This document shows positions 30,565 through 31,938 of a stretch of 37,510 bases of DNA, piece by piece (position 1 is the stretch's first letter; each line of letters starts with the position of its first letter). The notes below the pieces were generated by a model, which had not been told where the DNA came from, did not search any database, and was given only the letters and a program-made list of their open reading frames with translations. The position numbers and the translations under genes were made by a program. The stretch comes from Bdellovibrionales bacterium (GTDB taxonomy: Bacteria; Bdellovibrionota; UBA1018). Location of the stretch: contig JAEUWC010000011.1 of NCBI GenBank assembly GCA_016786465.1, positions 1 through 37,510 of the forward strand, read 5' to 3'.

Positions 30565-31938
30565 TTAAATCGAATCGCAGAATTCTTTGAACTTCGTGTC
30601 GGGTACGTCTTTGCAGACGCCGTCGATTTCGATCGATGAAACGCCTTTACGACCGGAAGCCATTTTGTTGGGCATCATCGCTAGGCACGCAGCCGCACGA
30701 CCAGGCCCTGGGGCCAGGTATGCGCCGTAACTGATGTCACCCGAACAGTTGTTCGTTTCCGGAAAGACCAGAATCACGCTCGCACCGGCTTTGCTCGTTG
30801 GCGCAGATTTTAAGCAGGCTGAAATGGGGTCCGAAAAGCCCAAGGCGATACAGGCGCCGTTCACACGCACGGAACTGGCAGTGCGCGTGGAAGAAATTTT
30901 CTTTGATGAATGACACTGGGTCATTAGGTCTTGATCAGGAACCAAGATTCCCGATCGACCGATCTTGTGGTTGCAGTCAGCGCCCGCAAAGGTCGTGAAT
31001 TCGGAATGATCCGGATTGTAGAACTTGGGAATTTCGAAGCCGTTGCACGCAAACTTCAACGAAGTGTCGACGATGTTCTGGCAAATACCGTTGACCTTCA
31101 TTGACCAGACAGACTTTCGGCCCTTTCGCCAAGAAATGTCGTCGCATTGTTCGTGAGCGGGTTGCGATGCGTTGAAAGTTTTTGAATACAGCACTTCTCC
31201 GGAACAGAAATCCGAATACTCGAAGAACTGAACCTGCGTCGCCGTGCTAGCCGTCTGTCCCGGAGCATTGAGCGCCGAACATGCGTCCATAACAAAGGTG
31301 TCTACGATGTCTTGGCAGACGCCATTCACGCGAATGCTCCAAGCCCATCGTTTTCCCGTCGTTCCAAGCTGCGCCTTGCACTGAGTGTGCGAATCCGAAC
31401 CCGGCAAAAGCGTGATGTTTCCGGAAGAAGTTCCCGTGCAATTGTCCGAAGCGGAAAAGAATTCGACCACCAGCTGGGACGGTTGTGACGGAACTGTCGG
31501 CGGCGTTGTTTGGGATGGCTTTGGGCTTGGCGTGCCGGGCGATGGCGATGAAGAGGGTCCGGGTGCCGGCGTTCCGCTTGGCGAAGCGGACGGTGATGGA
31601 GCGGGCGCAACCACTGGAGTCACTGCTTCGATCTTTGATTTCAGAAAGCTGCGAAGGCGATCCGCTTCAGCTTGACCGGTGAGCTTCGTCTTTTGATCAG
31701 AACTTTTGCCGGTCACGCAGCTTTCAGCAGCCCACTTTTCTTCGAACTGGTTGATACGCGAAGTGTAGGATTGCAAGGTTCCCAGGGCCGAAGCGTTTCG
31801 AATCCCGGCTTCTAGCTTTTGGATTTCATTGGTGAATTCACCAGTACAGTTGGGCGCGTCTTCGTCCTTTCCGCAGCCGGAAATCGCGACGATAGCCAGG
31901 CCAATCACCCCAAAAAACAATGCCCGAAAAGCTTTCAT
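30565..31938 (-). CDS. Lipoprotein with four tandem four-cysteine repeats
   Basis: The 457-residue product begins MKAFRALFFGVIGLAIVAISGC, a lipoprotein signal (lipobox I-S-G-C, Cys22). Residues ~30-105 look helical (two further Cys at 31 and 74). Then comes a Pro/Ser/Thr linker (about 107-155). The rest is four repeats with Cys at 167/187/208/220, 245/265/286/298, 322/342/363/375 and 398/418/442/454. The spacing C-X19-C-X20-C-X11-C is exact in repeats 1-3; repeat 4 has X23 in the middle gap. Each has V/I-N/D-G-x-C at the third Cys. I recognise no family; two disulfides per repeat are likely in an oxidising periplasm or surface. An ATG at 31950 is an alternative start. Confidence 0.75.
   Translation of the reverse strand: MKAFRALFFGVIGLAIVAISGCGKDEDAPNCTGEFTNEIQKLEAGIRNASALGTLQSYTSRINQFEEKWAAESCVTGKSSDQKTKLTGQAEADRLRSFLKSKIEAVTPVVAPAPSPSASPSGTPAPGPSSSPSPGTPSPKPSQTTPPTVPSQPSQLVVEFFSASDNCTGTSSGNITLLPGSDSHTQCKAQLGTTGKRWAWSIRVNGVCQDIVDTFVMDACSALNAPGQTASTATQVQFFEYSDFCSGEVLYSKTFNASQPAHEQCDDISWRKGRKSVWSMKVNGICQNIVDTSLKFACNGFEIPKFYNPDHSEFTTFAGADCNHKIGRSGILVPDQDLMTQCHSSKKISSTRTASSVRVNGACIALGFSDPISACLKSAPTSKAGASVILVFPETNNCSGDISYGAYLAPGPGRAAACLAMMPNKMASGRKGVSSIEIDGVCKDVPDTKFKEFCDSI

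Follow-up and report, generated by a model that had tools for sequence, protein, structure and literature searches.

The described proteins that come nearest to the repeats presented here are the betagamma-crystallins (PF00030, Crystall; PF08964, Crystall_3), which in bacteria are stabilised by calcium. The repeats share with them the strand-hairpin signature [VI]-x-[FY]-[FY]-x3-[ND]-x-x-G and a later strand of the type S-[IV]-[RK]-V. They differ from the crystallins in lacking the calcium motif and in having two conserved cysteine pairs; the helices seen in the model, a shorter unit and the tandem setting within lipoproteins are likewise features of the repeats. Similar in size is the SP_1775-like small domain of Streptococcus pneumoniae (PDB 4iaj), which obtained the joint best structural score with the repeat model (Z 4.4, rmsd 3.5, 64 residues), but the aligned identity is 3% and this Z lies far under that of a convincing relationship. 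Another small secreted protein, Bd0675 of B. bacteriovorus (CASP14 target T1074), comes from the same phylum and, with its four invariant cysteines, parallels the four conserved cysteines of the repeat domain; it is set apart by its description, in which helix A leads to beta-strand 1 and Y57, G86, G87 and G91 are invariant (PMC8616854).

The gene encoding the four-repeat lipoprotein occupies positions 30565..31938 on the minus strand of the window, i.e., the whole 37,510-nucleotide stretch of Bdellovibrionales DNA that was analysed; the translation, the ATG start and the relatives define a product of 457 aa, followed by the stop codon. Residues 1-21 (31876..31938; this and all following features are on the minus strand) form a type II signal peptide, MKAFRALFFGVIGLAIVAISGC, in which the I-S-G of the ISGC lipobox precedes Cys22, the residue predicted to be lipidated. 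The mature N-terminal domain (residues 22-105; 31624..31875), delimited by homology and modelling, is predicted to be a three-helix bundle and contains its own cysteine pair, C31 and C74. It is followed by a Pro/Ser-rich linker (residues 106-155; 31474..31623), recognised in the sequence and predicted by the model to be disordered for the most part (pLDDT 40-49). The remaining part consists of four repeats, delimited by cysteine spacing, profile and model: repeat 1 (31261..31473; Cys 167, 187, 208 and 220), repeat 2 (31027..31245; Cys 245, 265, 286 and 298), repeat 3 (30805..31011; Cys 322, 342, 363 and 375), and repeat 4 (30568..30783; Cys 398, 418, 442 and 454). Repeats 3 and 4 do not contain the conserved Trp, and repeat 3 has the poorest score against the family profile. 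The protein has 19 cysteines in total, the last 16 of which form the repeats. The N-terminal helices matched the structure of Borrelia Rev (Z 8.6), a resemblance that may reflect a common helical-bundle arrangement and perhaps nothing more. Within the same genome, this domain is homologous to the N-termini of a paralogue on contig C20 and of a lipoprotein on contig C17. The latter (G000:C17 near 2524-2913; L020:850-1920, minus strand) apparently carries three N-terminal C-x42-C helical domains connected by a long Gly-Thr repeat, and lacks the four-cysteine repeats.

The four-repeat lipoprotein gene is the last in a row of minus-strand genes, with argR upstream on the same strand and ftsZ in convergent orientation. 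At window:26983-36816, ftsQ-ftsA-ftsZ point at it from one side, and arginine genes lie on the other: argC-like, argJ, AA_kinase, ornithine carbamoyltransferase-like and argR. Two M16-family peptidase genes are located side by side at window:24274-26960 (minus strand). A conserved operon was ruled out, as the repeat genes have different neighbours at each locus: ftsZ and arg genes in the window, flagellar genes on C20, a subtilase-like gene in G024, and a ThiF gene in G190. Since the neighbours differ between loci, the genomic context tells nothing about function.

The sequence-only reading had described four units of the form C-x19-C-x20/23-C-x11-C, and the translated sequence contains exactly these 16 cysteines, the gaps being 19-20-11 in repeats 1, 2 and 3 and 19-23-11 in repeat 4. 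The reported period of 76-78 residues agrees with the measured C1-C1 spacings of 78, 77 and 76, and the V/I-N/D-G-x noted ahead of the third cysteine is present in all four repeats (RVNGVC, KVNGIC, RVNGAC and EIDGVC). When 16 cysteines were placed at random 200,000 times, four equal first gaps never coincided with four equal third gaps. A profile built from the repeats of other genomes, leaving out the genome of the window and its two closest relatives, gave the protein a total of 101 bits, the best of 5,000 shuffles reaching 10.6, and matched all four repeats, repeat 3 weakly. The random placements and the result of this independent profile indicate that the cysteine pattern is not due to chance; judged by their sequences, the four repeats are truly homologous to each other and to those of distant relatives. 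The spacing that had been called rigid is so in the window protein but not in the family, where 13 to 22 residues separate C1 from C2 and 16 to 23 separate C2 from C3. The third gap is nearly constant across the relatives, at 11 and rarely 12.

No match covering the repeat domain was found in Pfam, NCBIfam or the PDB sequences, so that the earlier suggestion that it may be undescribed stands. That the domain had not been recognised holds good with regard to curated families, but its divergent members point to the betagamma-crystallins, as discussed below. The NCBIfam PspA and PDB phmmer matches of the full protein were rejected, their source being mainly the Pro-rich linker. Nothing convincing was found in PHROGs: one relative matched one PHROG of unknown function at 3e-5, and one search with this relative used its two repeats in reversed order, creating an artificial junction in the query. 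The viral fold library gave no match to the repeat domain below E 0.2. The genome-contig scan gave no match with the full protein and, with the sub-alignment, only two genomes already known. A phage, plasmid or viral origin was dismissed, as phage and plasmid records and two viral-contig scans contained no match; these phage, plasmid, viral and genome-contig collections make up the scope of the searches beyond the phylum. The repeat domain is real, and undescribed in the libraries searched, and the family should be nameable in Pfam.

With a 57-row alignment, AlphaFold2 gave a confident model of repeat 2 taken singly (pLDDT 93.2, pTM 0.80), with the order beta-beta-alpha-beta-beta-alpha and the elements E2-8, E18-25, H30-36, H39-42, E45-51, E54-62 and H63-69. 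In this model the first hairpin carries C1 (14), the final strand has C3 (55) at its beginning, and the two main helices hold C2 (34) and C4 (67). The model of the full mature protein (pLDDT 81) is composed of the three-helix N-terminal domain, the disordered linker and four similar repeat units, with the order of elements much alike in all four. The small disulfide-locked domain proposed earlier is supported and we regard it as probable, the disulfides themselves being presumed. All four cysteines are kept in 56 of the 57 repeats; in the single exception (the middle repeat of a protein in G003), C2 and C4 are gone and C1 and C3 are kept. The joint loss favours C1-C3 and C2-C4 pairing, and these would be, going by this one repeat, the most likely disulfides. 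The pairing C1-C2 and C3-C4 expected by the sequence-only reading is disfavoured by the same loss and by the model, in which C2 and C4 sit in helices and C1 and C3 by strands. Four near-invariant cysteines per unit could also mean that they bind metal or haem or serve in redox reactions instead of forming structural disulfides; this is highly improbable, since the protein is exported, the spacing contains neither CxxC nor another of the common motifs for metal or haem, the cysteines are distributed over about 54 residues in different structural elements, and C2 and C4 can be lost jointly with C1 and C3 remaining.

The relationship to the betagamma-crystallins was approached along structural, bridging-sequence and direct lines. 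Among the best 50 rows of VIA-align almost all were betagamma-crystallins, whose alignments spanned nearly the entire model with Z 3.0-4.4 and an rmsd of about 3, although a Z of about 4 may possibly represent a common arrangement. The divergent member L098 was picked up by the repeat profile with a per-genome E of 1.5e-6; when its domain is used as the query, its top two Pfam families are Crystall, with 16.3 bits and E 0.011, and Crystall_3, with E 0.17, and Crystall_3 is the single Pfam match of both L109 (E 0.028) and L111 (E 0.014). These scores do not reach the Pfam cut-offs, with 16.3 bits against 25 for Crystall and 15-16 bits against 27.3 for Crystall_3, and as the three members are mutually related their crystallin matches are not independent. 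On a bacterial crystallin HMM, L098 scored 15.7 bits, and the best of 2,440 shuffles 11.2. In hhalign the whole family aligned to the crystallins in the Greek-key register with P 0.016, which is not significant, as 12 of 300 column-permuted nulls equalled it; the three-row divergent subset gave P 1.2e-4, a value without a permutation null of its own. The sequence similarity is confined to the first Greek-key half, and we know of no crystallin counterpart of the C-terminal helix bearing C4. The calcium motif [ND][ND]xx[ST]S is absent from all 57 repeats and present in 13 of 13 control segments of bacterial crystallins, and the repeats of the window protein have no Pfam crystallin match.

An independent fold, invented within the Bdellovibrionota lineage and resembling crystallins by convergence on a strand rich in aromatic residues, a tight hairpin and a Ser-hydrophobic strand, would agree with the outcome of the permutation test, with the absence of any Foldseek match to the repeat model in the PDB below E 1.9, and with the lack of a PF00030 match among 144 genomes of the phylum. 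Against it speak the first rank of a crystallin family in Pfam for the three divergent members, obtained with domain-only queries, and the predominance of crystallins in the VIA-align rows, and we consider such an origin possible, yet the less probable one. As the three lines agree and none is decisive, the repeat family is called related to or derived from the crystallin families, and not a member of them. Most likely, the repeat domain represents a known class of fold in a new, divergent and calcium-free form, and not a categorically new kind.

The explanation that we favour, and hold to be somewhat probable, is that of an envelope lipoprotein whose crystallin-derived repeats, each with two disulfides and having lost the calcium site, form an array for multivalent binding or a coat. 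According to this explanation, the signal peptide and a lipid-anchored cysteine would be followed by the small helical domain, the linker and the four repeats in tandem. The repeat probably descends from a Greek-key unit of the betagamma-crystallin type, which would have lost its calcium site and gained two disulfides per repeat, these taking over the stabilising role of calcium. The disordered Pro/Ser linker would keep the array off the membrane, and the array itself, a series of small and presumably very stable domains, would most likely bind multivalently or form a coat, either in the periplasm or at the surface of the cell, a putative role read from the anatomy of the module. The exposure at the surface and the binding to wall, polysaccharide or another cell that the sequence-only reading had suggested are likewise putative, whereas the lipobox and the linker are visible in the sequence. 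The narrower statement that this is an undescribed, disulfide-locked family of the phylum of predatory bacteria with a crystallin-type fold, in which two disulfides replaced calcium, forming a multivalent prey- or surface-binding array, appears rather doubtful when taken in all its parts. Were the favoured explanation correct, the repeats would offer a possible natural example of a calcium-dependent fold rebuilt around disulfides. The model also supplies a predicted fold for a hitherto uncharacterised part of the envelope proteins of Bdellovibrionota, apparently including one in B. bacteriovorus HD100.

In the profile search the repeat domain was found in 25 of the 369 genomes and 19 of the 182 genera of the phylum, and judging from these hits the family is known so far from Bdellovibrionota. 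The relatives carry one to four copies, usually C-terminal, behind N-terminal regions unrelated to each other, and nearly all complete ones start with a lipobox or a signal-peptide-like N-terminus. Two relatives come from metagenome-assembled genomes, one of them labelled Bdellovibrionales. The genome G190 (a single contig of 3,782,950 bases), which we take to be that of B. bacteriovorus HD100, encodes a three-repeat protein at about 2,253,722-2,254,558. The ThiF-family gene two genes downstream is probably Bd2354 (PMC12546842), and the three-repeat protein is likely to be about Bd2352, a tag derived from this neighbour. A literature search yielded no description of the repeat domain, and the tag Bd2352 was absent from the main texts searched. 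The occurrence of a repeat protein in this genome, together with the lipid anchor, the long linker and the tandem copies on unrelated N-termini, would suit a lectin or adhesin for prey or substrate ligands, with the array acting multivalently in predation or attachment, an explanation that fits either origin of the fold. However, in g89, the genus of G190, the repeat was matched in 4 of the 24 genomes, which argues that the protein is accessory and not core to predation, and no known lectin or adhesin family was matched; we therefore treat an adhesive role as a tentative option.

The C20 paralogue in the genome of the window has the same architecture as the four-repeat lipoprotein, 38% identity to it, and lies beside flagellar genes. 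In the repeat tree, which is poorly resolved, the first repeats of the window protein and the paralogue cluster together, as do their fourth repeats; from these groupings, the four-unit array appears to predate the split of the two paralogues. The linker of the paralogue (L005:7563-9005) consists of TATPSP repeated in tandem almost without fault, and its gene stands directly after a flagellar run whose genes are, by eye, flgK-, flgL- and fliW-like. It is also worth noting that the three-repeat gene of a relative at G146:C18:4828-5463 seems to be broken by in-frame stops in its first repeat, due to decay or to an assembly error in a fragmented genome, and that in L096 and L097 (from G261 and G262) a standard four-cysteine unit is followed by a second unit with a long insertion.
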